Positions 7,096 through 25,035 of a stretch of 58,418 nucleotides of DNA are shown here, one piece after another. Each line of letters opens with the position of its first letter. Position 1 is the stretch's first letter. The stretch spans positions 1 to 58,418 of the forward strand of contig JAJXWV010000031.1 of NCBI GenBank assembly GCA_021781455.1, given 5' to 3'. The position numbers were made by a program, and so were the translations under genes. This DNA is from Acidobacteriota bacterium. Lineage in GTDB: Bacteria > Acidobacteriota > Thermoanaerobaculia > Gp7-AA8. Below the pieces are notes generated by a model. The model saw nothing but the letters and a program-made list of their open reading frames with translations. It was not told the origin of the DNA and ran no database searches.

Positions 7096-7100
7096 TTTAA

Positions 7101-7315
7101 GGCGGCGTAGCCGCCGTAAGAATTTAGCGGCGGCCGTCAGGCCGCCGGAGCAAGCGATCACGTCGGCGTACGAGGGCACGAAGTGCCCGACAGGAGGTCG
7201 GGTGAAACAGACCGAGGATCTGTCGCGCGCTGCGCGCGCTCGGACGCTGGGTCGGGCCGATCGAACGGCGGCCTGACGGCCGCCGCTAAATTATTATGTC
7301 GGCGGCTCCGCCGCC
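7101..7315. repeat. Composite palindromic repeat
   Basis: A 27-bp arm at 7121-7147 (AATTTAGCGGCGGCCG and on through TCAGGCCGCCG) returns exactly inverted at 7266-7292, and outer GGCGGC-NN-GCCGCC hairpins flank the arms at 7101-7116 and 7300-7315. Each arm also folds on itself. The rest of the 526-bp gap between the ROK kinase and the BNR gene (6906-7431) holds only this element, the dispersed repeat at 7021-7095 and two direct copies of AATCTCAAATCTCAAA-like sequence near the edges. I see no gene in it. Confidence 0.7.
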
Positions 7316-7431
7316 TCTGGAGTTTGGCACTTCTCTCTTTCTCATCTCACCCACGGAAATCCCCGTAGAGCCTCAATCACCAATCTCAAATCTCAAACCC
7401 GTCGCGGGATCCACCTTGCTACGATGAGGGG

Positions 7432-10400
7432 ATGAAGCACACGTTCAGGCCCCTCGCGCTCGTCCTCGTCCTTCTCGGGCTCTTCGCCTCCGCCGCGGCG
7501 GGTGCTCCCGTTCCGGCCGCGCTCTTCGATGGGATGTCATGGCGGGAGATCGGGCCATACCGCGGTGGTCGCATCGCCGCGGTCGCCGGCGTTCCGAATC
7601 AACCCGATACGTATTACCTAGGCGCGGCGATCGGCGGTGTCTGGCGCACGACTGACGGTGGACAAGAATGGGAGCCGATCTTCGATCACCAGGCCGTCGG
7701 GTCCGTGGGCGCAATCGCGATCGCGGCGTCGGATCCCAACACGATCTACGTCGGGACGGGGGAGTCCGCGCCGCGCGAGGACGTCTCGTTCGGCGACGGC
7801 ATGTACAAATCGACCGATGGCGGGAAGACGTGGACGCACATCGGTCTCGACGACACGCAGCACATCGCGCGCATCGTCGTCGATCCTTCCGACCCGAAGA
7901 CGGTGCTCGTCGCGGCGTTAGGTCACGTTTACGGGCCTAACAGCGAGCGTGGCGTCTTCCGGACGACGGACGGAGGCCTCACCTGGAAGAAAGTCCTCTA
8001 CAAGGACGACCAGAGTGGCGCGATCGAGCTCGCGGCCGATCCCGACAATCCGAAGACTGTCTTCGCGGCGCTCTGGCAGATGGGCCGCACACCGTGGAGC
8101 CTCTCCAGCGGCGGACCGGGCAGCGGGTTGTACAAGTCGATCGACGGCGGAGCCACCTGGAGCGCCGTCACGGGCGGCGGATTCGCGAAGGGGATCATCG
8201 GAAAGATCGGAGTCACGGTCGCCGCGGGAACGAACGGCCGGCGCGTCTATGCGCTCGTCGAAGCGACCGATGGCGGCCTCTATCGGTCCGACGACGGAGG
8301 AACGACCTGGCGTCTGGCGAATGACGACCACCGCCTGTGGTCGCGGGCGTGGTACTTCACGAAGATCTGGGCGCATCCGAAAAATCCGGACATCGTCTAC
8401 GTCGCGGGCGGGTCGTTCTGGAAGTCGACGGACGGCGCGAAGAATTTTGAGCGCGTCGGGATTCCGGGAGCGGACAACCACGACTTCTGGATCAACCCGT
8501 CGAGCCCGGATCACATGATCGAGGGATTCGACCAGGGCGTGGCCATCTCCGTGGACGGCGGCCGCACCTGGGACAAGCGCAACAATCTTCCAATCGGCCA
8601 GTTCTACCACGTGTCGACCGACCGCGCCTTTCCGTACTCGGTCTACGCAGCGCAGCAGGACATCGGCGCGATCGCGATCGCCAGCCGCGGCTGGGGCGGC
8701 ATCACGGAGCGCGACTGGTTCAACGTCGGCGGCGACGACGCCGAGTGCGGTTTCGTCTGGCCCGACCCGCTGCACCCGAACCTCGTCGTCGCCGGAGGCT
8801 ACGCGGGCGCGCTCACCGTCTTCGACAAGGAGACGCACCAGCTGCGCGACATCGCTCCCTGGTCGAACGCCAACGGCGGACACCCGGCCAGCGATCTGAA
8901 GTACCGCTTCACGTGGACTTCGCCGGTCGTCTTCTCGCCGCACGATCCGCAGCTCTTGTACATGGGCTCGCAGTCCCTGATGTCGACACGCGACGGCGGA
9001 TCGACGTGGAAGGTGATCAGCCCCGACCTGACCAGGAACGACCGCTCGAAGCAGGGGAGGTCCGGCGGTCCGATCACCAAAGACGATGCCTCGGTCGAGT
9101 ACTACGACGTGATCTTCGCCATCGCGCCGTCGCCGCTGCGCGCCGGCCAGATCTGGATCGGCACGGACGACGGCCTCGTGCAGCTCTCGACCGACGGGGG
9201 ATCGACGTGGACGAAGGTCACCCCGCCGGGCCTCCCGGAGTGGGCGAAGATCTCGATGATCGAGCCTTCGCCGTTCGACGCGGACACCGCGTACGTCGCG
9301 GTCGACGCGCACAAGCTGGACGACTTCGCACCGTACATCTTCAGGACGCACGACAACGGCCGGAGCTGGACGCGGATCATGAACGGCCTCCGCAGCCCGG
9401 CGCACGTCTACGCCGTGCGTGAAGACCCGAAGCGCAGGGGACTGCTCTTTGCGGGGACGGAGACCGGCGTCTACGTCTCGTTCGACGACGGGGACGACTG
9501 GCAGCCGCTCCAGTTGAACCTTCCCACGACGTCGATCCGCGATCTCGCCGTTCACGACGACGACCTGGTCGTGGCGACGCACGGGCGCTCGATCTGGATT
9601 CTCGACGCCATCGAGCCGCTGCGCGAGGCGACCGTGCCCCTCGCCGCCGAGCCGCTGCACCTGTTCGCCCCGCGGACCGCGCTGCGCATCCATGAAGCGG
9701 GCACGTACACTGTGCCGGTCGAGCCGGCCGGCGCGAACCCGCCCGACGGAGCGATCCTCGACTACACCCTTGCCTCTGCCGCAAAGAATGTCTCGCTGAC
9801 CGTCGTCGACAGCCAGGGACGCACGGCGTTTGCCGCGACGAGCGGCGCGGACAAGTTACCGTCGTCGGCCGGCATGCACCGCGTGACGTGGAACCTCCGT
9901 TACCCGCTGCCGCCTCTGATCCCGACGGCGGTCTACAACGAGCGTCCGCCGCGCGGCGTCTTCGCTCTTCCCGGCTCGTACACCGTCAGGCTGACCGCAG
10001 ACGGGCGGACGGTGACGGCGCCGCTGACCGTCGGGCTGGATCCGCGGGTCAAGGTGACGGAAGACGCGCTCGCCGCCGAGTTCGCGCTCGCGAGCCGGCT
10101 CATGGAAATGCTGGGCGAGATTCACGCGGCCGCGCACGGGATCATGGAAGTGCGGCAGCAGATGGCGGCCGTCCGGCCGAAGCTTCCGGCGCACGACGCG
10201 GAGCTGCTCTCCTCGATCGACCGGCAGGCCGGCGAAATTCTCAACGCCATCTACGAACCGCAGGCAAAGACCGGCACCGATCTCCTCAACGATCCGATGC
10301 AGCTCAATGTCCGGGTCGCCTATCTGGAGGACGAGGTCGATTTCGGCGACGGCGCGCCGACCTCGCAATTCGAAGAGATGACCGGCGAATACCGCCGCGA

Positions 10401-11220: not shown

Positions 11221-13341
11221 ATGAACGGAACCTGGAAAGACATCGAGAAGCTGGAAAAAGATCTTTGGGAAGCGGCGGACAACCTTCGCGCGAACTCGAA
11301 GCTCACGTCGAACGATTACTTCATGCCGGTCCTCGGCGTGATCTTTCTGCGGCACGCTGCGAACCGCTTCGAGGCGGCGCAGAAGCAGATCCAAGAGGAT
11401 CAGGCGTCCGGGCGCATGCCGAAGCGGAAAGTGCTGCCGGCGGACTTCGTGAGGCGCCGGGCGCTCTGGTTGCCGAAACAGGCGCGCTACGAATGGATCA
11501 TGGAGCAGGCGGCGACGCGCGAGACCGACCTGCCGACTCTCGTGACGGCAGCGATGAACGCGATCGAGGCGGATTTCGAGCCGTTGCAGGGCGTCCTGCG
11601 TAAGGATTACGGGATCTTCGAGCCGAAGGTGCTCGAGGACCTCATGCGACTCTTCAATAGCGAGCAGATCCGCGGGGCCAGCGGCGACGTCTTCGGGCGG
11701 ATCTATGAGTACTTCCTCGCCGAGTTCTCGATGCAGAAGGCGCACGACAACGGCGAGTTCTTCACGCCGTCGTCGATCGTGCAGACGATCGTGAACGTCA
11801 TTGAGCCGGACCACGGGACGGTGTTCGATCCGGCGGCCGGATCGGGCGGGATGTTCGTGCAGTCGAGCCACTTCATCGAGCACGAGGGAGAGGACACGGC
11901 CAAGCGGGTCGTCTTCTACGGCCAGGAAAAGAACCCCGACACGATCCGCATCGCCAAGATGAATCTCGCGGTGCACGGTCTGGAAGGGAAGATCGCCGAG
12001 GCGATCACGTACTACCAGGACGAGCACACGCTGCGCGGGAAGTGCGACTTCGTCATGGCCAATCCGCCGTTCAACGTCGATCTCGTCGATGCGGAGAAAG
12101 TGAAGACGGATCCGCGGCTGCCGTTCGGACTGCCCGGCGAGAACAAGAACAAGAAGGTCCCGAACGGGAACTACCTCTGGATCTCGTATTTCTGGAGCTA
12201 CCTGAACGAGCATGGCCGCGCGGGATTCGTGATGTCGTCGCAGGCGTCGAGCGCGGGACACGGCGAAAAAGAGGTGCGGCGGAAGATCGTCGAGACAGGC
12301 GACGTCGACGTAATGATCTCGATCCGGGGGAACTTCTTCTACACGCGGACAGTGCCGTGCGAGCTTTGGTTCTTCGACCGCGGGAAACCGGCGGAGCGGA
12401 AGGACAAAGTGTTGATGCTCGACGCGCGGAACGTGTTCCGGAAGGTAACGCGGAAGATCTACGACTTCTCGCCCGAGCAGATGAAGAACCTCGCCGCGAT
12501 CGTCTGGTTGCATCGCGGCGAGACGAAGCGCTTTCTGCGCCTGGTCGACGACTACTTCTTCTCGTTAGGCGAGGAGTGCCGGCTCATCGCACCGATGCTC
12601 GATCGGTTCGATGCGGGGCTTGCTGGGGTTATAGAGCGGCTCGACCCGGTGGTGAAGCTCGCCGGCAAGAGCGGATCGCTCGATGACGCAAAGCGGCAGG
12701 CGATCGGCGAGGCCGCAGCGGAATTGCGTGACGCATCCGCAGCGTACGCCGGGGATCGCGCGGCGCTGCTGGCCGCTCTGACGAAATTCAGCAAGGCGCA
12801 CGCGAAGGAACGCTCGCGCACGAACAAGGCGCAGCACGCCACGCGAAAGGATTTCGATTCGATCGCGGAGTCGATACGCGGGCTCGTGAAGCAGATCGAC
12901 CTGCTGTACAAGCTCGCCTCGCGCCTCGGCGATCGAGCAGTCGAAGCGGGCGCGGACGACGCGATCGCGAGTGCATTCGACCGCCGTTCCCTCGGCCGCC
13001 TGATCAAGCAGCTCGACGAAGAACGGAAGACGGCCGTCGAGCAGCTGAAGCAGGCCGCCTACGTTCATCGCCAGATCGCTTGGCTGCAGGAGCGTTTCCC
13101 TAACGCCGAGTTCCAGTCCGTTCCCGGTCTCGTGAAGCTCGTCGACCGCGCCGAGATCGAGGCTGCGGACTGGAGCCTCACGCCTGGCCGCTTTGTCGGC
13201 GTTGCTCCTGCCGAAGAGGACGACGACTTCGACTTCGAGCAGACGCTGCGCGACATCCACGTGGAACTGAGCGATCTGAACAAGGAAGCGGTGGAACTTG
13301 CCACGAAGATTAAAGACAACTTCGAGGAACTTGGCGCGTGA
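11221..13341 (+). CDS. hsdM: Type I restriction-modification methyltransferase subunit
   Basis: A protein of 706 residues. It has an N-terminal HsdM helical domain (about 1-150), the SAM-binding motif FDPAAGSGGMF at 202-212, and the N6-adenine catalytic motif NPPF at 281-284. With HsdS it methylates adenine in a bipartite target; with HsdR it forms the restriction complex. The protein is about 200 residues longer than typical HsdM: from about 450 on it carries a Lys/Glu/Ala-rich coiled-coil region. The stop overlaps the GTG start of hsdS by four bases. The 190 bp upstream hold no gene; a promoter is probably there, but I could not pick one. Confidence 0.95.
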   Translation: MNGTWKDIEKLEKDLWEAADNLRANSKLTSNDYFMPVLGVIFLRHAANRFEAAQKQIQEDQASGRMPKRKVLPADFVRRRALWLPKQARYEWIMEQAATRETDLPTLVTAAMNAIEADFEPLQGVLRKDYGIFEPKVLEDLMRLFNSEQIRGASGDVFGRIYEYFLAEFSMQKAHDNGEFFTPSSIVQTIVNVIEPDHGTVFDPAAGSGGMFVQSSHFIEHEGEDTAKRVVFYGQEKNPDTIRIAKMNLAVHGLEGKIAEAITYYQDEHTLRGKCDFVMANPPFNVDLVDAEKVKTDPRLPFGLPGENKNKKVPNGNYLWISYFWSYLNEHGRAGFVMSSQASSAGHGEKEVRRKIVETGDVDVMISIRGNFFYTRTVPCELWFFDRGKPAERKDKVLMLDARNVFRKVTRKIYDFSPEQMKNLAAIVWLHRGETKRFLRLVDDYFFSLGEECRLIAPMLDRFDAGLAGVIERLDPVVKLAGKSGSLDDAKRQAIGEAAAELRDASAAYAGDRAALLAALTKFSKAHAKERSRTNKAQHATRKDFDSIAESIRGLVKQIDLLYKLASRLGDRAVEAGADDAIASAFDRRSLGRLIKQLDEERKTAVEQLKQAAYVHRQIAWLQERFPNAEFQSVPGLVKLVDRAEIEAADWSLTPGRFVGVAPAEEDDDFDFEQTLRDIHVELSDLNKEAVELATKIKDNFEELGA

Positions 13342-14510
13342 GCTGGCCTTACGCGCCACTGGACTTTGTCAAAGCGCCTACGCGATATGCGCTCGTCGGC
13401 GGCCCGTTCGGTTCGAACCTGACAACGCGTGACTATGTCGATGACGGCGTCCCAGTCATTCGCGGCTCCAATCTCCCTGACGATGCTACCTTTCGGGATG
13501 AGGATTTCGTGTTCGTGTCGGAGACCAAAGCTGACGATCTCCGATCGAACACTGCTTACCCGGGAGATGTGATCTTCACCCAGCGAGGCACGCTCGGTCA
13601 GGTCGGCGTCATCCCTCACGATGCGCGGTTCGCCAGGTACATCATTTCCCAGAGCCAGATGAAGCTCTCGGTTGACCCCGAGAAAGCCAACCCTCGTTTC
13701 GTCTACTACTTCTTTCGTCTGCCCGCGACCGTACAGAAGATCATCAACCAGACTTCGACGTCCGGCGTGCCTCACATCAATCTTGCAGTGTTGAAGGAGT
13801 TTGAGATCCCTTTGCCAGATGTCGTCATACAGGACGTGGTCGTTGACGTCCTGTCCGCCTTCGACGATCTGATCGAGAACAACCGGCGGCGGATGGCTCT
13901 GCTGGAGGAGGCGGCGCGGCAGCTCTATCGCGAGTGGTTCGTCCGCCTCCGCTTCCCCGGCCATGAGCACACTCGCGTGGTCGATGGCGTGCCAGAGCGG
14001 TGGGAACGAACCGCACTTGAGAATGCGCTAGTCCTTCAGCGTGGCTTCGATCTGCCCGCTCAAGCTAGAAATCAAGGAGACGTGCCAATCTATGGTTCCA
14101 CCGGCATTTGCGGCTATCACGATGCCTCGCGGGTCGCCGGACCCGGCTTGGTTACGGGACGCAGCGGTTCACTGGGCGAAGTTCATTTTGCTCCCTCAGA
14201 CTTCTGGCCGCTCAACACGGCCCTGTGGGTGAAAGAGTTTCGGCGGGTTACACCACTGTTCGCGCTCTATCTCCTTAGAGGAATGGATCTCAAGCAGTAC
14301 AACGGCGGCGCCTCAGTACCGACCCTCGATCGCAAAGCGGCGCACAAAGCCGAGATTCTTCTTCCGGATCATCGGATGATCGGGATGTTCGACGATTTCG
14401 CACGAACTGTGTACGCACAAATTGCGAACTTGGAAAAGCAGAATCAGAAGCTCCGCGCCGCCCGCGACCTTCTCCTCCCGCGCCTCATGAGCGGAGAGAT
14501 CGCGGTATGA
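13338..14510 (+). CDS. hsdS: Type I restriction-modification specificity subunit
   Basis: A protein of 390 residues starting at a GTG that overlaps the hsdM stop (GTGA). It shows two target-recognition domains, each followed by a conserved helix: IPLPDVVIQDVVVDVLSAFD-L-I-x-N near 160-180 and ILLPDHRMIGMFDDFAR near the C-terminus. The family uses each domain to read half of the DNA target. The central spacer helix MALLEEAARQLYREWF is typical. The terminal LLLPRLMSGEI motif shows the protein is complete. The next gene starts in the last four bases. Confidence 0.92.
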   Translation: MSWPYAPLDFVKAPTRYALVGGPFGSNLTTRDYVDDGVPVIRGSNLPDDATFRDEDFVFVSETKADDLRSNTAYPGDVIFTQRGTLGQVGVIPHDARFARYIISQSQMKLSVDPEKANPRFVYYFFRLPATVQKIINQTSTSGVPHINLAVLKEFEIPLPDVVIQDVVVDVLSAFDDLIENNRRRMALLEEAARQLYREWFVRLRFPGHEHTRVVDGVPERWERTALENALVLQRGFDLPAQARNQGDVPIYGSTGICGYHDASRVAGPGLVTGRSGSLGEVHFAPSDFWPLNTALWVKEFRRVTPLFALYLLRGMDLKQYNGGASVPTLDRKAAHKAEILLPDHRMIGMFDDFARTVYAQIANLEKQNQKLRAARDLLLPRLMSGEIAV

Positions 14511-15031
14511 GCGATCGCAAGAAGATCGTCATCATCGCCGGGCCGAATGGCGCGGGGAAAACGACCTTCGCGCGCGAATTCCTTCCGGCCGAGGCAGGAT
14601 TGCCGCTGTTCGTCAACGCGGATCTGATCGCCGCCGGTCTCTCTCCGTTCGATCCCGATGCCGCCGCCATTCGCGCCGGACGGCTCATGCTCGAACAGAT
14701 CGACGCTCACGCCCGCGCCGGACACAGCTTCGCGTTCGAGACCACACTCGCCGGTCACACGTACCTCCGCCGCATCGAACGCTGGCGTGCGGGCGGTTAC
14801 CTCGTGGAGCTCGTCTTTTTATCGCTTCCTTCAGCAGAGGACGCAATCAAGCGCGTCGCCACGCGCGTTCGACAAGGTGGTCACGACATTCCCGCCGACG
14901 TCGTCCGACGCCGTTTTGCGGCCGGTATGAGAAACTTTCTCGAGCTGTACAGGCAACGCGTCGACTACTGGATCTGGTACGACAACAGCGGCACGCGGCC
15001 GGTACTCCTCGGCAAAGGACATAAGCAATGA
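14507..15031 (+). CDS. Zeta-toxin-like P-loop kinase/ATPase
   Basis: A protein of 174 residues. Walker A is GPNGAGKTT at about 12-20, followed by FVNADLIAAGLSPFDP, then FAFETTLAG (conserved in zeta/UDP-GlcNAc-kinase-like proteins, COG4185), and Arg residues at the expected lid position (VATRVRQGGHDIPADVVRRR). Zeta toxins phosphorylate UDP-N-acetylglucosamine; many relatives have unknown substrates. The ATG lies in the last four bases of hsdS and its own stop overlaps the start of the small partner gene, so it is embedded in the restriction operon. Toxin activity is inference. Confidence 0.8.
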   Translation: MSDRKKIVIIAGPNGAGKTTFAREFLPAEAGLPLFVNADLIAAGLSPFDPDAAAIRAGRLMLEQIDAHARAGHSFAFETTLAGHTYLRRIERWRAGGYLVELVFLSLPSAEDAIKRVATRVRQGGHDIPADVVRRRFAAGMRNFLELYRQRVDYWIWYDNSGTRPVLLGKGHKQ

Positions 15032-15243
15032 GCGGCAACGTGGAATGGGACGATAACTCCGACATGCAGGCGGTTCCTCAGGCGCTCGCTCGTGCCGCTC
15101 GTCGTGCCAGAGACATCGCGCGACAGACCGGCACGCCGCTCGTCATCGTTCGCGACGGCGTGCTGATCGAAATCGATCCCGATGATCCGCGACTCGATGA
15201 AGAGAACGGCCCCGCTACTCCCGATACGGTTCACGATCGCTGA
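15028..15243 (+). CDS. Small partner of the zeta-like protein (putative antitoxin)
   Basis: A protein of 71 residues translationally coupled (ATGA) to the zeta-like gene. It is helical and basic in the middle (ARAARRARDIARQTG), followed by TPLVIVRDGVLIEIDP and an acidic tail. This strand-turn-strand end is typical of small proteins found next to COG4185 ATPases. An antitoxin or regulatory role is inferred from the coupling, not from a recognised fold. It is the last gene before the REP/RAYT insertion that separates it from hsdR. Confidence 0.6.
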   Translation: MSGNVEWDDNSDMQAVPQALARAARRARDIARQTGTPLVIVRDGVLIEIDPDDPRLDEENGPATPDTVHDR

Positions 15244-15277
15244 TTGTCTGCACTCATTTTTCCGTGACACGCATGCT

Positions 15278-15336
15278 CGCGCGCCGGAGGCGCGCCGAAC
15301 GGTAGCCGGTGGCGGAGCGCCAGCGACGCCACCGGA
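15278..15336. repeat. REP-like palindromic repeat, left copy
   Basis: A 59-bp unit with two internal palindromes: GCGCGCCGGAGGCGCGC and GGTGGCG...CGCCACC. The same unit lies inverted at 15933-15990 with only a one-base gap and about one substitution. The two copies bracket the RAYT transposase gene, the arrangement expected of a REP/BIME element with its own transposase. Confidence 0.8.
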
Positions 15337-15381
15337 TGACATCGGTGGATTCAAGTGTGCGCCCCGGACGGGGCGCCGGAC

Positions 15382-15828
15382 CTACCAGAGATATCGTTCG
15401 TCGAAGGTGACCCCGAGGCTCTCGAGAATCGCGCGATACTCCTCCTGAAACGTGCGATGGCGGTGATGCTCCTCCTGCGATTCGATGTATTGCACCACTG
15501 AGTCGAGATCGCGACGGCTGAACGTGAATGCGCCGTATCCCTCCTGCCATGCAAACTCGGACACTCCGACTGTGTCGTGTACCCAAACCGACGACGCGCG
15601 CTTGATGTCGCGGAGAACATCGGCGAGGCAATGCATTGGCCGGAGACCGACTGCGAGGTGAACGTGATCCACGGTGCCGCCGACTCGAGAGGCGACTCCG
15701 CCGGCCTGACGAATGCAGCCGCCGAGGAACGCGTGGAGGCTGTCTCGCCAATTCTCGTCGATTAACGGTCGGCGCTCTTTCGTGCTGAAGACCAGGTGAT
15801 AGTCGAGCGCGGTGTGCGTGGAAGGCAT
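15382..15828 (-). CDS. REP-associated tyrosine transposase (RAYT, IS200/IS605 Y1 type)
   Basis: A protein of 148 residues. The start is the ATG at 15828 behind GGAGAA. Y1-transposase features are visible: N-terminal strand ALDYHLVFSTKERRP, the metal-binding HUH-type pair in GTVDHVHLAVGL, and a C-terminal helix with the candidate nucleophile Tyr in VQYIESQEEHH. These enzymes cut and rejoin single-stranded DNA at REP hairpins. Here it sits exactly between two inverted REP-like units, which supports RAYT rather than a free IS200 element. It lies inside a restriction operon, between the zeta-like pair and hsdR. Confidence 0.85.
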   Translation of the reverse strand: MPSTHTALDYHLVFSTKERRPLIDENWRDSLHAFLGGCIRQAGGVASRVGGTVDHVHLAVGLRPMHCLADVLRDIKRASSVWVHDTVGVSEFAWQEGYGAFTFSRRDLDSVVQYIESQEEHHRHRTFQEEYRAILESLGVTFDERYLW

Positions 15829-15932
15829 CGTGCGTTTCTCCGCTACGAGCATTCCTCGGATCATCGGTGCATTCAATGTTTCTACATTGCGAAGATCCGG
15901 CGCCGGGGCGCCCATTGTCGGCGGCCCCGTGG

Positions 15933-15990
15933 TCCGGTGGCGTCGCTTCGCTCCGCCACCGGCTACCGTTCGGCGCGCCTCCGGCGCGCG
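15933..15990. repeat. REP-like palindromic repeat, right copy (inverted)
   Basis: Reverse complement of 15278-15336 with one indel and one substitution. It carries the same two internal palindromes. It lies upstream of the RAYT start and about 130 bp before hsdR. Confidence 0.8.
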
Positions 15991-16124
15991 TTTCGGCAGG
16001 CAGGCCCACGGGCGCATCTGGCTCGGGCGGGGGTGTCGAGCGCAAATCTCTGACGCGTTGATTGGGCCTGAGTCACTACCTCCTGTAGAGTTAGAACCAT
16101 GGCGGCACTCGACGAGGAGCCTGC

Positions 16125-19100
16125 GTGGCGCTAACCGCGATCAACAGCGAAGACCGGCTCGTTCAGAAGACCTTCGCCGACCATCTCCACGACGCCCACG
16201 GCTGGGAAAGCGTCTACGCCTACAACACCGAGACGTTTGGCCCGAACGGAACGCTCGGCCGCGACTCCGAACGCGATGCCGTTCTGATGGGCGAGCTCCG
16301 CACCGCTATCGGGCGCCTGAATCCGGAAATGCCCGAAACCGCGCGCGATCTCGCGATCGAAAAGCTCACGCGCAGCGATCTCTCGCGATCGCTTCTCCAG
16401 CACAATCGCGAGTTCTACGGCTTCATTCAGAGAGGCGTGCCGGTTGACTGGCTCGACGAGACGGGTGAAATCCACTACGCCCGAGCACGCGTGATCGATT
16501 TCCGCGACGCGAAGAACAATCGCTTCCTTGCCGTGCGCGAACTCAAGATCCAGGGGACTCACGTTCCTCACTACAACCGCCGCGCCGATCTGGTCTGCTT
16601 CGTCAACGGCCTGCCGCTCGTCTTCATCGAGCTGAAGGCGGTGTACCGGAACATCCGAGCGGGCTTCGACGACAACCTCACCGACTACCTCAACGAAAGC
16701 ATTCCACACGCGTTCCATCACAACGCCTTTCTCGTCGTGAGCAACGGCGACCACGCGCGCTACGGATCGATCACGAGCAAGTGGGATCACTTCTCCGAAT
16801 GGAAGCGCGACCGTGAATCCGACAAAGGACGCGTCGACGCCGAGGCGCTGTTAGACGGCATGTTGGCCAAGGAGCGGCTGCTCGACATCGTCGAAAACTT
16901 CATCCTTTTTGATGACAGCCGACCCGGCGGCACACGAAAGATCGTGGCGCGCAATCATCAGGTGATCGGCGTCAACAATGCCGTGGCATCCGTCGAACGG
17001 CAGGAAGAGCTCAAACGCCAGTACCCGCCCGAAGCGCGTCTGCTCGAATACCGCGCCGTGGTCGAAACGAGGCTCGACCGTGTCGCCGACGAAGACGTGG
17101 CACCTCCCAGAGCCGTGGAGGAACTCGTCCTCTCGAAGCGTGCCCATCCCGATCTCGGGCGCATCGGCGTCTTCTGGCACACGCAGGGAAGCGGCAAGTC
17201 CTACTCGATGGCCTTCTTCGCCGAGAAGGTCCGGCGCTCGATCCCTGGAAACTTCACGTTCCTGATCATGACCGACCGCGAGGATCTCGACGACCAGATC
17301 CGGCGGACGTTCGTCGGTTCCGGCATCACCGATGAGAAGACTCCGCGCGCCGGATCGGGCAAAGAACTGAAAACGATCCTCCTCGGCAACCATCGCTATG
17401 TCTTCAGCCTCATTCACAAGTTCAACCAGCCTGTGACCGAGCCGTACAGCGAGCGTGACGACATCATCGTCATCTCCGACGAGGCGCATCGGACGCAGAT
17501 GGGGAAGTTCGCGCGCAATATGCGCCAGGCGCTTCCGAATGCCTCGTTCATCGGCTTCACAGGCACGCCCATCCTCAAGCACGACGAGCTAACTAAGAAG
17601 ATCTTCGGCGGATACATCTCGCGCTACGACTTCAAGCGATCCGAGGAAGACGGATCGACAGTCAAGTTGATCTACGAGAATCGCGGAGAGAAGCTCGGGA
17701 TCGAACGGCTCGACCTCAACGACCGCATCGCCGAGGCAGTCGAGAAGGCGGACCTCGATCAGGACCAGACTACGCTGCTCGAGAAGCTGCTCGGAAAAGA
17801 CTACGAGATCATCACGGCCGACGACCGCCTCGACAAGCTGGCCGACGATTTCGTCGAGCACTGTTCGACTCGTTGGGAGACCGGCAAGTCGATGATGGTC
17901 TGCATCGACAAGATCACCTGCGCGCGGATGCTGCAGCGGATCGAGCCTCGCTGGCAGGCGACCCTCCTTCAGGTCCGGGCGGCCGCCGCCGCCGCGGAAG
18001 GCGACCTGGCGATGGCCAGCGAAGCAGATCAACGCGAGCGTCTGAGCCGCGAGCTCGAATCATTGCGCGGGCGTGCACGATGGATGGAGAGCACCATCAT
18101 CGAGATCATCATCAGCGAGGCGCAGAACGAAGGGCGCGACTTCGCGAAGTGGGGCTTCGACATCATCCCTCATCGGGTGCGGATGAAGCGTGGCTTCGAA
18201 ACACCGGATGGCAAGCGCGTGAGCGTTGAGGACGCGTTCAAAGACCCCAACCATCCGTTCCGCGTGGCGATCGTCTGCGCGATGTGGCTGACGGGTTTCG
18301 ACGTCGAATGCCTGGCAACGCTCTACATCGACAAACCGATGAAGGCGCACACGCTGATGCAGGCCATCGCCCGCGCGAACCGCGTCTACCCCGGCAAAGA
18401 CTGCGGCGTCATCGTCGATTACAACGGGATGCTCAAGAGTCTCAGGCAGGCGCTCGCCGATTACGCCCTCGGCGACGAGGAGGGCGAGGAGTCAGGAACA
18501 CCGGCCGCCCCGATCAAAGAGCTCGTCGCGGCGCTGATCGACGCGATCGAAGAGGCTGAGCGTCACCTCGCTGCGCACGGCTTCGACGCGACACGCTTGA
18601 GGGGAGCGACCGGCTTCACGCGCATCGAAGCGCTCCGCGATGCGGTCGACGCCTGCTACACGTCGGACGAGGTCAAGCGCCGTTTCGAGATCATCGCGCG
18701 GCACGTGTTCATCCGGATGAAGGCCCTGGTCATGGAACCGGCCGCGTGGTCGTACGCCGAGCGGCACGACAACCTTGAAGCGATCTACAAGAAGCTCCAG
18801 GAACGGCGGGACACTGCGGATGTCACCGAGCTGCTGAAGGAACTGCATCGGATCGTCAATGAAGCCATCAGAGCTCAGGACGTCGGCGTCGATCATGCCG
18901 AAGGCCTCAAGGTGGACTTGAGCAAGATCGACTTCGAAAAGCTGCGCGAGGAGTTCGCACGCAAGGTCCGTCGCAAGCATTCGGCGTTGCAGGACATCCG
19001 CGACATCGTCGAGAAGAAGCTCGCAGACATGCTGCAGAACAACCCGCTGCGAATGGATTACTACCGCCGATACCAGGAGATCGTCGCCGACTACAACCGG

Positions 19101-19502
19101 GAGAAGGATCGAGCCACGGTCGAAGCAACGTTTGCGGCCCTGATGGATCTGGTCGCGTCGCTCGACACTGAGGAAAAGCGGGCGGCCGAGGAGGGTCTAA
19201 CCGAGACCGAACTGGCCTTGTTCGACCTGATCCTTCAGGGAAACATCGGACGGGCAGATCGCGAGCGAATCAAGCAGGCCAGCAGGCATCTGCTCGGGTC
19301 GATTCAGCGCGTGCTGGCGACCATGCCGCGGTGGACGGAAACGAGCACGACGCAGGCTGAGATTCGAACGACGATTCTCGACGATCTGTGGAGAACGCTT
19401 CCGCAGCCGCCATTCGATGACGAAGAGCTTCAGCGGGTCACGGAGCGCGTCTACGCGTACGTTTGGGGCAGGAGCGGCGTTGGAACAACGCCGTTCGCCT
19501 GA
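16125..19502 (+). CDS. hsdR: Type I restriction endonuclease subunit
   Basis: A protein of 1,125 residues. GTG at 16125 preceded by GAGGAG. The nuclease site is RRADLVCF (Asp155) and FIELKA (Glu169, Lys171). The translocase follows: Walker A TQGSGKS at 353-359, DEAH at 452-455, the motif III-like FTGTP, and the motor end around MWLTGFDVECLATLYIDKP and QAIARANR. With HsdM and HsdS it translocates and cuts unmethylated DNA. It is separated from hsdMS by the zeta-like pair and the REP/RAYT insertion, but all four subunit-level parts appear intact. A protein-kinase scrap follows its stop directly. Confidence 0.95.
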   Translation: MALTAINSEDRLVQKTFADHLHDAHGWESVYAYNTETFGPNGTLGRDSERDAVLMGELRTAIGRLNPEMPETARDLAIEKLTRSDLSRSLLQHNREFYGFIQRGVPVDWLDETGEIHYARARVIDFRDAKNNRFLAVRELKIQGTHVPHYNRRADLVCFVNGLPLVFIELKAVYRNIRAGFDDNLTDYLNESIPHAFHHNAFLVVSNGDHARYGSITSKWDHFSEWKRDRESDKGRVDAEALLDGMLAKERLLDIVENFILFDDSRPGGTRKIVARNHQVIGVNNAVASVERQEELKRQYPPEARLLEYRAVVETRLDRVADEDVAPPRAVEELVLSKRAHPDLGRIGVFWHTQGSGKSYSMAFFAEKVRRSIPGNFTFLIMTDREDLDDQIRRTFVGSGITDEKTPRAGSGKELKTILLGNHRYVFSLIHKFNQPVTEPYSERDDIIVISDEAHRTQMGKFARNMRQALPNASFIGFTGTPILKHDELTKKIFGGYISRYDFKRSEEDGSTVKLIYENRGEKLGIERLDLNDRIAEAVEKADLDQDQTTLLEKLLGKDYEIITADDRLDKLADDFVEHCSTRWETGKSMMVCIDKITCARMLQRIEPRWQATLLQVRAAAAAAEGDLAMASEADQRERLSRELESLRGRARWMESTIIEIIISEAQNEGRDFAKWGFDIIPHRVRMKRGFETPDGKRVSVEDAFKDPNHPFRVAIVCAMWLTGFDVECLATLYIDKPMKAHTLMQAIARANRVYPGKDCGVIVDYNGMLKSLRQALADYALGDEEGEESGTPAAPIKELVAALIDAIEEAERHLAAHGFDATRLRGATGFTRIEALRDAVDACYTSDEVKRRFEIIARHVFIRMKALVMEPAAWSYAERHDNLEAIYKKLQERRDTADVTELLKELHRIVNEAIRAQDVGVDHAEGLKVDLSKIDFEKLREEFARKVRRKHSALQDIRDIVEKKLADMLQNNPLRMDYYRRYQEIVADYNREKDRATVEATFAALMDLVASLDTEEKRAAEEGLTETELALFDLILQGNIGRADRERIKQASRHLLGSIQRVLATMPRWTETSTTQAEIRTTILDDLWRTLPQPPFDDEELQRVTERVYAYVWGRSGVGTTPFA

Positions 19503-19642: not shown

Positions 19643-19762
19643 GGCTCCTGGTCACTTCCGTCTCCCATCGGTGGAGTCCTCGGAAGTTGCCAAAGACAGT
19701 TGTCACCACGGCGTGACCTCAGCGGCATTCCGAGGGATCATTAGACAGTTCGGAACGACGTG

Positions 19763-20905
19763 ATGAAGGTTGACGTCAAAGCGGAGCTGGTGCGCTGGGC
19801 GCGTGAGCGGTCGATGATCGAGCGCGACGTTCTCGAGGAACGCTTTCCCAAGCTCGATGCGTGGGAGAGCGGCGAGGCGCTTCCGACGTTGAAACAGCTC
19901 GAGAACTTCGCACGAGCCACGCATACTCCTTTCGGGTACTTCTTCCTTTCTGAGCCGCCGGTCGAGCGGATGCCGATTCCCGATTTCCGAACGGTTGCCG
20001 GCGCACGGATCGGCCGTCCGAGCCCCGATCTCCTCGACACGATCTATCTCTGCCAGCAGCGTCAGGAGTGGTATCGCGAGTTCGCCCGCTCCACTGGCGA
20101 GCGTCCAGTGTCCTTCGCGGCTTCCGCGACTGCCACCTCGAACGTGATCGAAGCAGCCGCAAACATCCGACACACCCTCGGCTTTGATGTCGAAGAGCGC
20201 CGCCGGATCCCGACTTGGACCGACGCATTGCGCCGCTTCATCGAGGTCGCCGACGCCGCCGGCGTGCTGGTCATGGTCAGCGGCGTCGTCGGCAGCAACA
20301 ATCGGCGCAAGCTCGACACGGATGAATTCCGCGGCTTCGCTTTGGCTGATCCGCTCGCGCCGCTCGTGTTCATCAACGGCTCGGACACGAAGGCGGCGCA
20401 GATGTTCACCCTCGCTCATGAGCTCGCTCACGTCTGGCTCGGCCAGTCCGCGGTGTCGGATTCGCAGCCGTCTCTTGCGCCCGATAACCGAGTCGAGCGT
20501 TGGTGCAACGAGGTCGCTGCGGAGCTGCTGGTTCCGATGGCGATCCTGCGCGACGAATACCGCGACGGCGCGAATGTTGAGCACGAGATGGAGCGGCTGG
20601 CGCGGCGCTTCAAAGTCAGCACGCTCGTGATCCTGCGCCGCATCTTCGACGTTGGCAGCCTGACGCAGCAGCACTTCCATCAGGCGTACGAGAGCGAGCT
20701 GCAGCGCCTGCTCGCCCTCCCGGCCGGCAGCGGAGGCAACTTCTACCTGACTCTCGGGGCGCGAGCCAGCAAGCGATTCGCGCGGGCCCTGGTGGTGAGC
20801 ACGCTCGAGGGTCGCTCGTCGTTCACCGAGGCGCTGCGACTTCTCGGCTTCAAGAAGATGACGACATTTCGGGAGCTGGGCCAGAACCTGGGGCTCGCTG
20901 TCTGA
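19763..20905 (+). CDS. XRE/ImmA-IrrE family regulator-metallopeptidase
   Basis: A protein of 380 residues (ATG at 19763; a GTG lies three bases earlier). The N-terminal 70 residues form a helix-turn-helix-like unit (WARERSMIERDVLEERFP, TLKQLENFARATHTPFGYFF). The zinc-peptidase motif HELAH is in FTLAHELAHVWLG near residue 217, with the downstream NEVAAELLVP Glu. ImmA/IrrE proteins cleave or relieve repressors. Here it is followed, overlapping by one base, by a DUF4411 gene, a known pairing. I infer a toxin-antitoxin-like or defence-linked unit in which this protein controls its partner. Confidence 0.85.
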   Translation: MKVDVKAELVRWARERSMIERDVLEERFPKLDAWESGEALPTLKQLENFARATHTPFGYFFLSEPPVERMPIPDFRTVAGARIGRPSPDLLDTIYLCQQRQEWYREFARSTGERPVSFAASATATSNVIEAAANIRHTLGFDVEERRRIPTWTDALRRFIEVADAAGVLVMVSGVVGSNNRRKLDTDEFRGFALADPLAPLVFINGSDTKAAQMFTLAHELAHVWLGQSAVSDSQPSLAPDNRVERWCNEVAAELLVPMAILRDEYRDGANVEHEMERLARRFKVSTLVILRRIFDVGSLTQQHFHQAYESELQRLLALPAGSGGNFYLTLGARASKRFARALVVSTLEGRSSFTEALRLLGFKKMTTFRELGQNLGLAV

Positions 20906-21390
20906 TGGCGTACCTGCTCGACGCGAACGTCTTCATCGCGGCGAAGAATCTTCACTATGGACTCGACTTCTGCCCCGCATTCTGGGACTGGCTGATCGAA
21001 CGGAATCAAGCCGGGATCGTCTACAGCGTCGAGAAAGTTGCTGACGAGATCGAGGATGGCGCCGATGATCTGTCGGAATGGGCGGCGGCTTTGGATCCGA
21101 CGTTCTTCCAGGCGCCAGACCCCTCCGTGATTGCGTCTCTGGCCGCAGTCAGCGACTGGGCAACGTCTGGCGGGTACGAACCGGCCGCGATCAGCACGTT
21201 CCTGCAGGTCGCCGACTATTACCTCGTTGCGCAAGCGCATGCTGGCCAGCACATCGTCGTGACGCACGAACGGCCCGCAGCCACGACGCGAAGGATCAAG
21301 ATTCCCGACGCGTGCATAGGCCTCGGAATCAAGTTCATGTCGCCCTTCGAAATGCTGCGTCGGGAGCACGCCCGCTTCGTGCTTGGCTGA
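20905..21390 (+). CDS. DUF4411 PIN-like protein
   Basis: A protein of 161 residues whose ATG overlaps the preceding TGA. PIN-fold acidic residues can be seen: LLDANVFI (first Asp), EKVADEIEDG (Glu), QVADYYLVAQA (Asp) and VVTHE. PIN proteins are metal-dependent ribonucleases, often toxins. The pairing with an ImmA/IrrE protein is the usual DUF4411 context. Ribonuclease activity is inferred from fold residues only. Confidence 0.8.
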   Translation: MAYLLDANVFIAAKNLHYGLDFCPAFWDWLIERNQAGIVYSVEKVADEIEDGADDLSEWAAALDPTFFQAPDPSVIASLAAVSDWATSGGYEPAAISTFLQVADYYLVAQAHAGQHIVVTHERPAATTRRIKIPDACIGLGIKFMSPFEMLRREHARFVLG

Positions 21391-21705: not shown

Positions 21706-22233
21706 ATGTCGTCATCATCGACATCGAGACGTCTCGTCGCTCTTTCCGCACTCCTGCTCGGTGCACTCGGGCTCGCCGTCACGGGATGGCAAATGCGCCA
21801 CAAGCTTCCGCTGCCGACGACGACGGTTGGCGTCGGCAAGCCGCTTCCGTCGATCGTCGTCAGCGATCCCACCGGGCGGCCCGTCGATCTTGCCACGGTG
21901 GTCGGAGGCGGATCCCGTTCCGTCATCGTCTTCTATTCGCCGTCGTGCGGCGTCTGCCAGAAGGAGCTGCCGCAGATCGGTCCATTCCCCCCGGAGCTCA
22001 GGCTTGTCCTGGTACGCGAGCCGGGCGACGACATGGCCGACCCGCTCGCATCGGCGGTCAGTCAGCGGTTCGCTGATCGCGACGGCGCGCTCAAGCGCGC
22101 CTTCGTCCTGCCGGTGTTGCCCACGGTGCTGCTGGTCGACGAAAGAGGATTCGTACGCGACGGTTTCGTCGGCGAGCATGAGGCTCGATCCGCTCAGCAG
22201 AAACTGGTCGCCTTTGCCCGTCGGGGGCGCTGA
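21706..22233 (+). CDS. Membrane-anchored thioredoxin-like protein, first gene of the peptide operon
   Basis: A protein of 175 residues. ATG at 21706 behind GAGGAG. One N-terminal membrane helix (about 10-28) after the basic start SSTSRR puts the rest outside the cytoplasm. The thioredoxin fold is shown by VIVFYSPSCGVCQKELP, with the redox pair Cys81/Cys84, and by the cis-Pro strand LPVLPTVLLVDERG. It probably makes, reduces or rearranges disulfides in exported substrates. The next genes encode peptides with four Cys each, the obvious candidates. Seven bases separate it from the C39 peptidase gene. DsbD-like recycling partners are not in the window. Confidence 0.8.
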   Translation: MSSSSTSRRLVALSALLLGALGLAVTGWQMRHKLPLPTTTVGVGKPLPSIVVSDPTGRPVDLATVVGGGSRSVIVFYSPSCGVCQKELPQIGPFPPELRLVLVREPGDDMADPLASAVSQRFADRDGALKRAFVLPVLPTVLLVDERGFVRDGFVGEHEARSAQQKLVAFARRGR

Positions 22234-22240
22234 GATATCG

Positions 22241-22828
22241 ATGCCGACGCGATCGCAACGACTTGGCGCCGCAGCGATTCTTGCGGTTCTCGCGATCGCG
22301 GGCGCGGCGTTCGTGTCGCTGCCAGCAATCGTCCGTCGCGTTGCGTTGCCGAGGGAGCGACTGAAGGAATTGCGCGCAGCAATCGAGGGTGCGAGGTACG
22401 TCGGTGACAGCGGCGTCATTCTGCAAAAGCACCGCAACGATTGTGCGGCGGCTTGCCTGAAGATGATCCTCGCCGGCCGCGGCATCGAGCGAGACCTCTC
22501 GACCCTGGCGCTCGATGCCGGCACGTCCGCTGCCGGCGCTTCGATCGCAGGGCTGCGCGTGGCCGCAGCGCGCGCAGGAATCGAGTCGCGCGCCTGGTTC
22601 CTGACCAAAGCCGATCTTCGCCGAGCTCCTCTGCCCGCCATCGCCTTCGTTCGCAGCGACCACTTCGTCGTCATCCGGCGATTCCTCGCTCCCGATCTGG
22701 TCGAGGTCGATGACCCCGCAATCGGAAGGCTGCACTGGCGTTTCTCCGCATTTGCGCGGGCGTGGAAAGGAGAAACGATCGTCTTCGACCCGACATGGGA
22801 TCCACAGCAAAGAGTGTCGTGCCGATGA
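22241..22828 (+). CDS. Membrane-anchored C39 (double-glycine) peptidase
   Basis: A protein of 195 residues. An N-terminal membrane helix (about 9-26) follows the basic MPTRSQR, so the catalytic part should face outward. The C39 signature is complete: Gln and Cys in ILQKHRNDCAAACLKMIL, His in RSDHFVVIRR, Asp in VEVDDPAIG. C39 peptidases cut leader peptides after Gly-Gly, usually as the N-terminal domain of a PCAT-type ABC exporter in the cytoplasm. Here the domain is free-standing and apparently extracytoplasmic, which is unusual. The two small genes that follow both contain a Gly-Gly before a Cys-containing core. Confidence 0.88.
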   Translation: MPTRSQRLGAAAILAVLAIAGAAFVSLPAIVRRVALPRERLKELRAAIEGARYVGDSGVILQKHRNDCAAACLKMILAGRGIERDLSTLALDAGTSAAGASIAGLRVAAARAGIESRAWFLTKADLRRAPLPAIAFVRSDHFVVIRRFLAPDLVEVDDPAIGRLHWRFSAFARAWKGETIVFDPTWDPQQRVSCR

Positions 22829-22859
22829 CCGGCACGATTCAACCAAGAAGGAGGTCCTC

Positions 22860-23117
22860 ATGAAGAAACGGTCCTATCTGCTGCTCGCGGTTCTCGCGGC
22901 CATCGCCGTCTCGGTCAGTGCCGTGAGCGCATTCGTGCCGCCGGCCGGAAGTCACGCGCTGGTGGCGAGTGTCCAGACGCAGCTCTCCGGCGGCGTGAGC
23001 TGCGATGGTGCCCTCGGTCTCACCGGCGCTCTCGCTCTCGGCGCATTGACCCCCTGCTCGATCATGTGCGCGGTTGGCGCGTGGTACAGCCTCGCGCTCA
23101 TCGCGTACGCGTGCTGA
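22860..23117 (+). CDS. Precursor of a four-Cys hydrophobic peptide (peptide A)
   Basis: A precursor of 85 residues. ATG at 22860 after a perfect AAGGAGG. Residues 1-24 are a Sec-type signal (MKKRSYLLLAVLAAIAVS, then AVSA). A linker ends in QLSGG at 41-45. Cutting after Gly45 would release 40 residues with Cys at 3, 21, 25 and 40, the last residue being Cys. The product is strongly hydrophobic, Gly/Ala/Leu-rich (DGALGLTGALALGAL) with a single acidic residue and no basic one. Peptide B has the same Cys layout. I infer a bacteriocin-like or signalling peptide; no known family recognised. Signal peptidase could alternatively cut after Ala24. Confidence 0.75.
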   Translation: MKKRSYLLLAVLAAIAVSVSAVSAFVPPAGSHALVASVQTQLSGGVSCDGALGLTGALALGALTPCSIMCAVGAWYSLALIAYAC

Positions 23118-23136
23118 GCACCTCCGAGAGGGAGCA

Positions 23137-23229
23137 ATGAGATCCGAAAAATGGCTTCTGGCTGGGCGCATCATGGGCGCACTGGGGATCCTCCTGGTGC
23201 TGTGGCAGTACGCCCGGATGCACGCGTAA
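23137..23229 (+). CDS. 30-residue single-helix membrane peptide
   Basis: ATG at 23137 follows GAGAGGGAG, a strong ribosome site. The product starts MRSEKWLLAGR, has one membrane helix (IMGALGILLVLWQY) and ends RMHA. It lies 19 bp after peptide A and 19 bp before peptide B, inside the operon. Its size, single helix and position suggest an immunity or accessory peptide, but nothing in the sequence proves that. There is no Gly-Gly site and no Cys. Confidence 0.5.
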   Translation: MRSEKWLLAGRIMGALGILLVLWQYARMHA

Positions 23230-23248
23230 GTATCTAACAGGAGGTTCC

Positions 23249-23500
23249 ATGAAAGGTCGAAGGGGTATTTTCATCGTGGCGATGGTTTTGACAGTCGCAA
23301 TCGCAACATCGGTATCAGTTGCGGGCGCGTCCGGCAGCGGCATTCTCGGTCCCGTCCAGCAGGCTTCCGCCGTCGGCGGCGACGCCTGTGAGTTCGCCGG
23401 CGGATTTGCCCTCGGACTCGGAGTCGCGGGACTCTTCGGTTGCGTGGTCTGCGGTGGCGGCGCTCTCGTACTGGGAGCAGCGCGGTTCTTGATGTGCTGA
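23249..23500 (+). CDS. Precursor of a four-Cys hydrophobic peptide (peptide B)
   Basis: A precursor of 83 residues with ATG at 23249 after ACAGGAGG. Residues 1-27 form a Sec-type signal (MKGRRGIFIVAMVLTVAIAT). The linker ends in ASAVGG at 39-44. Cutting after Gly44 releases 39 residues with Cys at 3, 21, 24 and 39 (again C-terminal). Spacing is C-x17-C-x2-C-x14-C against C-x17-C-x3-C-x14-C in peptide A, although the other residues differ (EFAGGFALGLGVAGLFG between the first two Cys). Both peptides have glycine-rich helix-like stretches, as two-peptide bacteriocins do. Same inference and limits as peptide A. Confidence 0.75.
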   Translation: MKGRRGIFIVAMVLTVAIATSVSVAGASGSGILGPVQQASAVGGDACEFAGGFALGLGVAGLFGCVVCGGGALVLGAARFLMC

Positions 23501-23518
23501 ACGGGTAAGTGAACGTCC

Positions 23519-23548
23519 AAGTTGGCGCCCCTTCCGGGGCGCCAACTT
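23519..23548 (+). terminator. Perfect 13-bp hairpin between peptide and transporter genes
   Basis: AAGTTGGCGCCCC, loop TTCC, then the exact complement. No T-run follows, so it is not a classical full terminator. In this place, after two precursor genes needed in excess and before membrane transporter genes, it could protect the upstream mRNA end or lower downstream expression. It ends about 11 bp before the permease start, so it could also limit ribosome loading. Confidence 0.5.
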
Positions 23549-23559
23549 CGCGGAGCGCG

Positions 23560-25035
23560 ATGGTGTTTCTTCTCGGAAGGATGCTTTGCAGACAGAGGTT
23601 ACGGCGCCTGCAGCGACAGTACGGCTGGCCGGCCGTGCTGAGCATGGCCGCGTTGGCCATCCTGATCACCGGCAGGTTCGCGCACGTCATCGGACGGTTT
23701 CCTCTCGTCGTGACGGTTTCCGACCTGGAGAAGATCGCTGGTTCGCTGTGGCTGACGTGGGTCGCCGTCGGTGTGGTCACCGGGCGCGATCTGACGTGGC
23801 ATATCGGCGCCGATCGTCTGATCGCGCTCAGGATCGGATTCGTGCGCCTGTATGCGGTGGAGCTCGCGCTTTCCCTCTTCACGGTCCCGCTGGCCGTGGT
23901 CCTTTCGATCCTTTCGATGGTGGCAGTCCTCGGCCGATGGAGCGCGAGCCGTTGGTTCTTGGCCGCGATCGGGTTCGTAGCGGTGGTGTACACGGTTAGA
24001 GCGACCGTCTCACTTGCGAGAGTCGCGGCATTCAGAGCCAGGGTCCTTCCCCTACGCGCACGAGTCTTCGTCTATGTCGTCATCGCCATGATCGTCGCCG
24101 TCGTCGCCGCTCCCTGGCTGGTCCGGCTGCACCCCGCGCGAGCGCTGGCGGATCTGCTGCTGCAGCAGTCCACGATGCGAGCGCTGCTGATTCTCCTCCT
24201 CTCCGTTTCTGCCCTCCTCATCGCGGACTTCTTCGTCACGAAAAGCGTGGTCTACTCCGGCAGTTCGGGCCCTGCGTCGAGGCGCGGCGCCAGCCGTCGT
24301 GCGGAGAGCCTGCCGCTCGGGAGCGTGTGGCTGCGGCTTCCGCTGCTTTGGCGAGTGAGCATGGCAGGGTGGCTGCGGAACCGCAGCGCAGTCCTTCTCC
24401 TGCTGTGGGGCGCCGCATACGGATTTGCATGGCCGTTTTTCTCGCGTGTGCAAGGGGTGTACGACTTCGTGCCGTACATCTGGATGGTGATGATCTTCCA
24501 TGCTTACTTGCGCGGCAACGTTCTGGGTGTCGACGGCGCGGGGCTCTGGTTCTACACGACGCTCGGCGTCACGATGGATCGGCTGATGCGCGTGAAGAAC
24601 GCGACGCTGACGGCGATGCAGGCCGTCATGATCGGCGCGGTTCTGCTCGCGGCGGCGCTGAAGCGTCACTCGGGCGTCGAGACGCCGCTGACCTGGGCGT
24701 GCCTGCTGTCGTTCGCTGTATGCGGGCTGCTCGTTGGAGAGATTGCGGGGACGATCATGTCGATCCGCTATCCGGAGAGAATCGATCGCACGTCAATGTA
24801 CTCGGGCGGATTCACGGTCGGCGCGCTCCTCGTGCCGGTGTTGCAGTTCATTCTCGCCGGGGGAGCATTGATCGTTTTCGCCGTGCCTCCGACTCCGACG
24901 AACTGGTTCCTGTTCATCGCTGCACCGGTGGTCCTGGCGGTGCTGAGATGGCGCGCACTCCCGGTCTGGCGCTCCGCTCTGCTTCGGCGCGACGGGGAAG
25001 AGATGCTTGACAAGATCGGGGCGCTGGCGGCATGA
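23560..25035 (+). CDS. Large polytopic membrane protein, ABC permease partner
   Basis: A protein of 491 residues from the ATG at 23560 (GGAGCG just upstream; an earlier GTG at 23509 would run through the hairpin). About 10-12 hydrophobic helices are visible, for example WPAVLSMAALAILITG, LFTVPLAVVLSILSMVAV, VFVYVVIAMIVAVVAAPWLV and VGALLVPVLQFILAGGALIV. A loop near 230-260 is Ser/Arg-rich. I do not recognise the family by sequence. It overlaps the ATPase gene by four bases (ATGA), so it is almost certainly the membrane half of an ABC system for peptide export or self-protection. Confidence 0.75.
   Translation: MVFLLGRMLCRQRLRRLQRQYGWPAVLSMAALAILITGRFAHVIGRFPLVVTVSDLEKIAGSLWLTWVAVGVVTGRDLTWHIGADRLIALRIGFVRLYAVELALSLFTVPLAVVLSILSMVAVLGRWSASRWFLAAIGFVAVVYTVRATVSLARVAAFRARVLPLRARVFVYVVIAMIVAVVAAPWLVRLHPARALADLLLQQSTMRALLILLLSVSALLIADFFVTKSVVYSGSSGPASRRGASRRAESLPLGSVWLRLPLLWRVSMAGWLRNRSAVLLLLWGAAYGFAWPFFSRVQGVYDFVPYIWMVMIFHAYLRGNVLGVDGAGLWFYTTLGVTMDRLMRVKNATLTAMQAVMIGAVLLAAALKRHSGVETPLTWACLLSFAVCGLLVGEIAGTIMSIRYPERIDRTSMYSGGFTVGALLVPVLQFILAGGALIVFAVPPTPTNWFLFIAAPVVLAVLRWRALPVWRSALLRRDGEEMLDKIGALAA

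Follow-up and report, generated by a model that had tools for sequence, protein, structure and literature searches.

The locus described here raises the question of what kind of element is formed by a single transposase gene lying between inverted palindromes inside a restriction (hsd) locus. REPINs have long been a puzzle: they are mobile repeats maintained by a transposase whose own gene is seldom copied. A preliminary description had read this locus as a complete REP/RAYT unit that had separated hsdR from hsdMS. The window, by which we mean the whole stretch of 58,418 nt of Acidobacteriota DNA that was analysed, probably contains at this place a REPtron-like unit whose transposase is of the IS200 type and belongs to TnpA_Y1 subclass 1.2. 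Published systems are compared throughout on the basis of portions of the papers cited.

Inverted ends and class of the transposase

We note that the near-identical inverted units of 59 and 58 nt, each with two palindromes, were correctly recognised at the outset. The units at 15278-15336 and 15933-15990 are 97% identical; their arms at 15278-15319 and 15949-15990 are 100% complementary over 42 nt and are followed by a second perfect pair of 15 nt, and each unit folds into two hairpins with MFE z-scores of -1.7 to -3.5 against dinucleotide shuffles. The inverted-repeat score at the locus is 42, compared with at most 13 in 20 shuffles of the same locus, and the inverted ends are not a product of chance. 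Overlooked in the first reading was a third hairpin, hp3, on the gene side of each unit, which brings each end to about 100 nt; the right copy was not chosen as the best hairpin of its flank by our hp3 detector. The transposase gene, as had also been described, lies between both units within the restriction locus (Table 1). It is intact, and its product matches Y1_Tnp (PF01797, E 4e-20) and also the IS200/IS605 model NF033573. Rfam families gave no match in the window.

Table 1. Coordinates of the features discussed in the text
Feature	Position	Strand	Remarks
TTAG-type inverted pair without gene, REPIN-like	7098..7317	.	same window, different pair; family cognate to the C61 transposase
hsdM	11221..13341	+	N6_Mtase, HsdM_N; flank, outside the element
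hsdS	13338..14510	+	Methylase_S; flank, outside the element
zeta-like kinase gene and small second gene (15028-15243)	14507..15243	+	AAA_33, Zeta_toxin; hsdS-hsdR slot, outside the element
left hp1	15279..15295	+	GCGCGCC-GGA-GGCGCGC, 7-bp stem, GGA loop; compensatory changes in 6/7 pairs, 21 GTAG-type units
left foot GTAG	15302..15305	+	after 6-nt linker CGAACG; GGTAG nearly invariant in 21 units
left hp2, REP-like palindrome CCGGTGGCG..CGCCACCGG	15306..15335	+	folding
left hp3	15359..15376	+	GCGCCCC-GGAC-GGGGCGC; inverted counterpart seen
TnpA_Y1 transposase, 148 aa	15382..15828	-	ATG at 15828, stop 15382-15384; DHVH / WQ / YIESQEEHH
right hp3, shorter form	15899..15912	-	inverted-repeat search
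right hp2	15934..15962	-	folding
right foot GTAG (CTAC on +)	15963..15966	-	
right hp1	15973..15989	-	folding
hsdR	16125..19502	+	TIGR00348, E 5e-135; flank, outside the element

Of the label RAYT, one part stands, namely a Y1 transposase between GTAG-tagged inverted palindromes, but the defining protein motif is absent. RAYTs are defined by an NP motif adjoining the catalytic tyrosine (PMC2817692, PMC6006769), and their home, class 2, has motifs of the YxxNP type, whereas subclass 1.2 carries DH[IV]H, WQ and YIKNQKEHH and is given, in the portion of the survey by Quentin et al. (2018, PMC6006769) used here, as devoid of REPs and as usually lacking the end structures typical of IS200. In the window protein the HUH motif is DHVH, followed by WQ and by the catalytic tyrosine motif YIESQEEHH with a C-terminal tail of 26 aa. 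Among 84 proteins (80 relatives and the four genes of the window's own genome) a motif count found DHxH in 79, Y---Q--HH in 77 and Y...NP in none, while the figure for WQ, 83 of 84, is biased because one scan pattern contained WQ. A profile of the four own proteins matched the IS200/IS605 TnpA structures 2fyx, 2xm3, 2a6m and 2vhg (E 1e-12 to 4e-11), and no chain named TnpA_REP was among its nine structure matches at E<=1. The window protein thus fits TnpA_Y1 subclass 1.2, a predicted placement made by the published motifs and not by the survey's HMM. Membership of class 2 (TnpA_REP) was rejected on the motifs, there being no NP after the catalytic tyrosine, and the class 3 motifs NHVH, W[TA] and YV..EQ do not occur in the window protein.

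A classical RAYT or REPtron with a class 2 transposase would account for a gene flanked by inverted GTAG-tagged palindromes, and also for the REPIN-like pairs made by a sister family described below. That reading is contradicted at the level of the protein motifs and by the structure matches, and it further has against it the three hairpins of each end and a genome in which the exact unit is not multi-copy, the over-representation expected of a REP being seen not for the window gene but for the sister TTAG type; we regard it as quite unlikely. The "complete REP/RAYT unit" of the preliminary description is organised as such units are, but hp3 had been missed from it, and in its exact form the unit does not behave as a REP present in many copies of this genome.

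The same ends around related transposases

We searched the loci of the 84 proteins with a unit detector of the form hp1-linker-NYAG-hp2, which was written after the loci of the own genome had been seen. Flanks of the full 450 nt were available at 69 of these loci, and the 15 with shorter flanks were left out. In the 69, units lay upstream in 45, downstream in 44 and on both sides in 33, and in 32 of these 33 the two units share their foot. The same detector applied to 138 shifted windows found 2 upstream, 6 downstream and none on both sides. The four own genes are all positive; without them the numbers are 41 upstream, 40 downstream and 29 on both sides, of 65 loci. Of 107 flanks, 94 have a linker of 6-9 nt, and the distance between the end of hp2 and the gene is in most cases 47-75 nt. 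An hp3 was seen in 60 of 93 flanks, compared with 7.7% of shuffles, once 14 flanks in which the unit was too close to the gene or too distant are set aside. The centre CCGGAGG is often common to hp1 and hp3. The relatives that bear such ends are mostly Verrucomicrobiota, Planctomycetota and Acidobacteriota; transposase relatives as such occur in many phyla. In 13 of 67 loci no unit was detectable; presence or absence of a unit required 9 changes on the tree, as compared with a mean of 12.1 and a minimum of 8 in 300 shuffles, and is not clearly clustered.

These counts bear on the possibility that the palindromes are terminators only, or the duplicate left by a local inversion, and have no connection with the transposase. 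Palindromes between operon genes would suit such an explanation, and REP-like hairpins can act in RNA. However, the same end architecture recurs around relatives (33 of 69 loci as against 0 of 138 control windows), the distance from end to gene is nearly fixed, the foot type tracks the transposase tree as set out below, and a scan for terminator-like sites gave none at the window units. Taken as a whole this explanation is very improbable, and a simple local inversion, which the preliminary description had named as a possible objection, was rejected on the recurrence of the ends around relatives.

The hairpin stems show compensatory changes. Across 21 GTAG-type units from the own genome and three relatives, 95.4% of cells pair, and changes on both sides occur in 9 of 24 pairs, compared with 4.7 in shuffles. 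The covariation score is 0.227, as against 0.084 for shuffles, a generous control because the unit sequences are related, and at most 0.050 for slid structures, which are the stricter control. Further pair types do not exceed those of the shuffles (14 versus 13.5).

The foot type corresponds to the phylogeny of the transposase. A quick tree was built from 82 proteins (L095 and L135, whose frames are disrupted, were left out), and on it the 61 rows with a TTAG (31), GTAG (19) or CCAG (11) foot require 10 changes of foot type, compared with 25.4 on average and never fewer than 18 in 500 shuffles; rows without such a foot were dropped. Most CCAG rows fall within a single 15-row clade (support 99). 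In a Bacteroidota/Ignavibacteriota clade of six rows (support 100), one of which, L138, is without a full flank, no unit was detected. L063 and L064, to which the window protein is most closely related, have the TTAG foot and not GTAG. A third end type is present in the own genome at the C13 transposase (L015, 2780-3800), where CTAG/GTAG feet accompany different hairpins and further copies lie downstream.

Copies without a gene, an empty site and the hsd slot

The preliminary description proposed counting the unit in the full genome, and held that a repeat found only here would speak against it. This is so in a narrow sense only: in its exact form the hp2 palindrome of the window gene occurs, in the whole genome, only at the gene's own two ends, while the family of ends is dispersed. 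Full-length units of the GTAG type number nine at four places (E < 1e-7): the window gene has two, the C87 gene is surrounded by four, C33 has a pair without a gene and C57 a single unit. In their linker, the units found elsewhere than in the window are closer to the C87 type than to the window units. Several tandem partial GTAG-type ends adjoin the C87 transposase gene (L013, reversed locus, ~2590-2900). GTAG-type pairs are also present in G001, G004 and G013. Since GTAG copies are few and the exact form is not dispersed, the window unit may be recent, foreign or inactive.

The C33 pair provides one empty orthologous site. It sits between hisIE and cdd, in a gap of ~390-450 nt; the gap is 88 nt in G015 and ~150 nt in G011, where the pair is absent. 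In G015 a ACCACAGAG-type palindrome is uninterrupted, and here the GTAG pair lies between its arms. The comparison, which leaves out G012 (other sequence in the gap) and G009 (no cdd match there), shows presence versus absence and gives neither direction nor date. A ACCACAGAG...CTCTGTGGT-type palindrome surrounds the GTAG-type pair at L016 5901-6480, and pieces of its left arm recur elsewhere in the genome.

Dispersal is far more extensive for the TTAG type, which is cognate to the C61 transposase. A covariance model of this type, whose whole-genome counts are lower bounds, gave at least 150 matches in the own genome at E up to 4e-6 and at least 149 at 1e-6. The matches listed occupy 93 places on 44 contigs and include 57 pairs; in 49 of these the halves are arranged head-to-head, 14-22 nt apart. 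In most of thirty copies inspected the borders are sharp and the flanking sequences unrelated, and left and right halves differ consistently; some genome places share a longer form. One such pair, also overlooked in the first reading, lies in the window upstream of a gene at 7432; its longer form, from ~7021/7028, is common to other genome places, and no clean empty site was found for it. Among 18 family genomes the own genome has at least 149 TTAG units, G001, of the same genus, at least 18 and G006 at least one, and the other 15 have none among the matches listed. Related transposase genes occur in 9 of the 18, and the single match in G001 adjoins a TTAG unit. In 29 genomes of named relatives (30 loci out of 80) the exact hp2 pattern was found in 20, in up to 78 copies and in some genomes including the transposase's own ends, and the reversed pattern in none of the 29.

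Alternatively, the unit might be an ordinary insertion sequence of the IS200/IS605 type that moves as a whole, with the palindromes as its ends. For instance, the match to the IS200/IS605 family model, the hairpin ends and the spread of relatives over many phyla would all be expected of one. However, the other three transposase copies of the genome are only 43-54% identical to the window protein and not near-identical, gene-less units (of the TTAG type) far outnumber transposase gene copies, and the ends are inverted, whereas IS200/IS605 elements, as described, have no terminal inverted repeats (PMC2817692, in the portion used). The near-identical copies and non-inverted ends by which subclass 1.1 IS200/IS605 is recognised were not found, and we consider an ordinary insertion sequence unlikely.

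Turning to the REPtron-like unit in its surroundings, hsdM, hsdS and the zeta-like gene are linked by overlapping start and stop codons, the small second gene ends at 15243 and the element begins 35 nt further on. A genome of the same class (G046) has hsdM-hsdS-hsdR with a gap of only 34 nt between hsdS and hsdR, without the zeta pair and without a transposase, from which it follows that something entered this gap. The claim that hsdR was separated from hsdMS thus holds as to insertion, but in 4 of 4 plasmid relatives inspected the gap also holds accessory genes (RecQ/DprA, PilT-domain, IrrE/DUF4411/Abi, or dcd). The hsdS-hsdR gap is an accessory slot, and the position of the element is therefore plausible. 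Of 396 genomes sampled from the phylum, 49 carry zeta homologs, and those loci inspected lacked these hsd genes and the transposase; since the two do not occur together there, joint mobility of the zeta pair and the transposase is not supported. The preliminary description suggested that the insertion could alter how strongly the nuclease is expressed relative to the methylase. A scan of 15000-16300, which covers the sigma-70 type only, found no promoter of that type for hsdR. Downstream of hsdR, at 19760-21390, lies an IrrE-like and DUF4411 pair, such as is found between hsdS and hsdR on an Acetobacter vaccinii plasmid. Further on, at 22091-25035, the open reading frames might encode a C39-type peptidase, short peptides of the leader type and membrane proteins, which may together form a cluster for peptide export.

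Proposed mechanism and comparison with known systems

Our best reading is a REP/REPIN-like system of an IS200-type transposase, for which we infer binding, cleavage and mobility of the window copy. Each end consists, in order, of hp1, a linker of 6-9 nt, an NYAG foot (here GTAG), hp2, about 20 nt, hp3 and then the gene. By analogy with work on IS200/IS605 and TnpA_REP, a transposase dimer would act on single-stranded DNA, binding hp2, with the foot as a guide to cleavage whose AG would select a CT-like dinucleotide, and joining would proceed through a 5'-phosphotyrosine. TnpA_REP cleaves at CT, and in one tested system the GTAG foot guides the choice of site (PMC8266576, in part); the AG common to the NYAG feet would be compatible with this. 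The cognate transposase may mainly mobilise inverted pairs that lack a gene, in preference to its own gene. In the window one gene unit, lying on the opposite strand, has probably entered the accessory slot that follows hsdS and the zeta-like pair and precedes hsdR.

More broadly, we lean, if only somewhat, towards the view that in several phyla subclass 1.2 transposases operate a REP/REPIN system of their own, marked by ends of three hairpins, an NYAG foot specific to each clade and miniature elements of ~220 nt. Our literature search found no description of REP-like ends for this subclass, and single cases may have been mentioned earlier. If true, this would represent a REPtron class separate from class 2 TnpA_REP; it would then either stand midway between IS200 and REPtrons, or REPINs would have arisen in it independently. 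A second, IS200-like subclass with the REPIN habit, different ends and a variable foot would allow a test by comparison, which would ask whether inverted ends, the AG of the foot or the order of hairpins are needed. It would also offer a candidate cognate substrate for a transposase subclass reported, in the available portion of the survey, to have none (PMC6006769).

With subclass 1.2 as surveyed (PMC6006769, in part) the window protein shares its length of 148 aa, DH[IV]H, WQ, Y---Q--HH and the C-terminal tail, and the genome shares the few diverged copies. It differs in that the survey's entry for REPs is "no" and typical IS200 ends are lacking there, whereas we find composite hairpin ends and dispersed pairs, and in that the subclass is placed mainly in Cyanobacteria and Bacteroidetes as compared to the three phyla named above. 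For Bacteroidetes the entry "no REP" agrees with our unit-less Bacteroidota/Ignavibacteriota clade. TnpA_Y1 class 3, in the same portion of that survey, resembles the present case in its occurrence in Acidobacteria/Planctomycetes, in a gene flanked by several hairpins and in dispersed copies; its protein motifs are not those of the window protein, and its foot is CnGA.

The composite TIRs P. putida 607 and P. fluorescens 4255 (PMC3733652) come from other species, and the portion of the paper used describes their second stem-loop as unrelated and does not describe a three-hairpin order. Like the ends described here, they consist of a degenerate GTAG unit plus a second stem-loop flanking a Y1 transposase gene, and their presence in hundreds of copies is a further likeness. 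Compared with REPtrons and RAYTs (Nunvar 2010, PMC2817692; Di Nocera 2013, PMC3733652; both in part), the NP motif is missing here, each end has three hairpins and the foot varies between GTAG, TTAG, CCAG and CTAG; shared are the gene between inverted GTAG-tagged palindromes, the apparent coevolution and the dispersed copies, here for sister types. REPINs, as described in the portion used of Bertels and Rainey (2011, PMC3116915), lack the ~215-225 nt length, the three hairpins per half and the consistently differing halves of our TTAG type. With them the present system shares compensatory stem changes and dispersed inverted pairs of units, the latter seen in the TTAG family and the C33 pair and not in the window gene's own unit.
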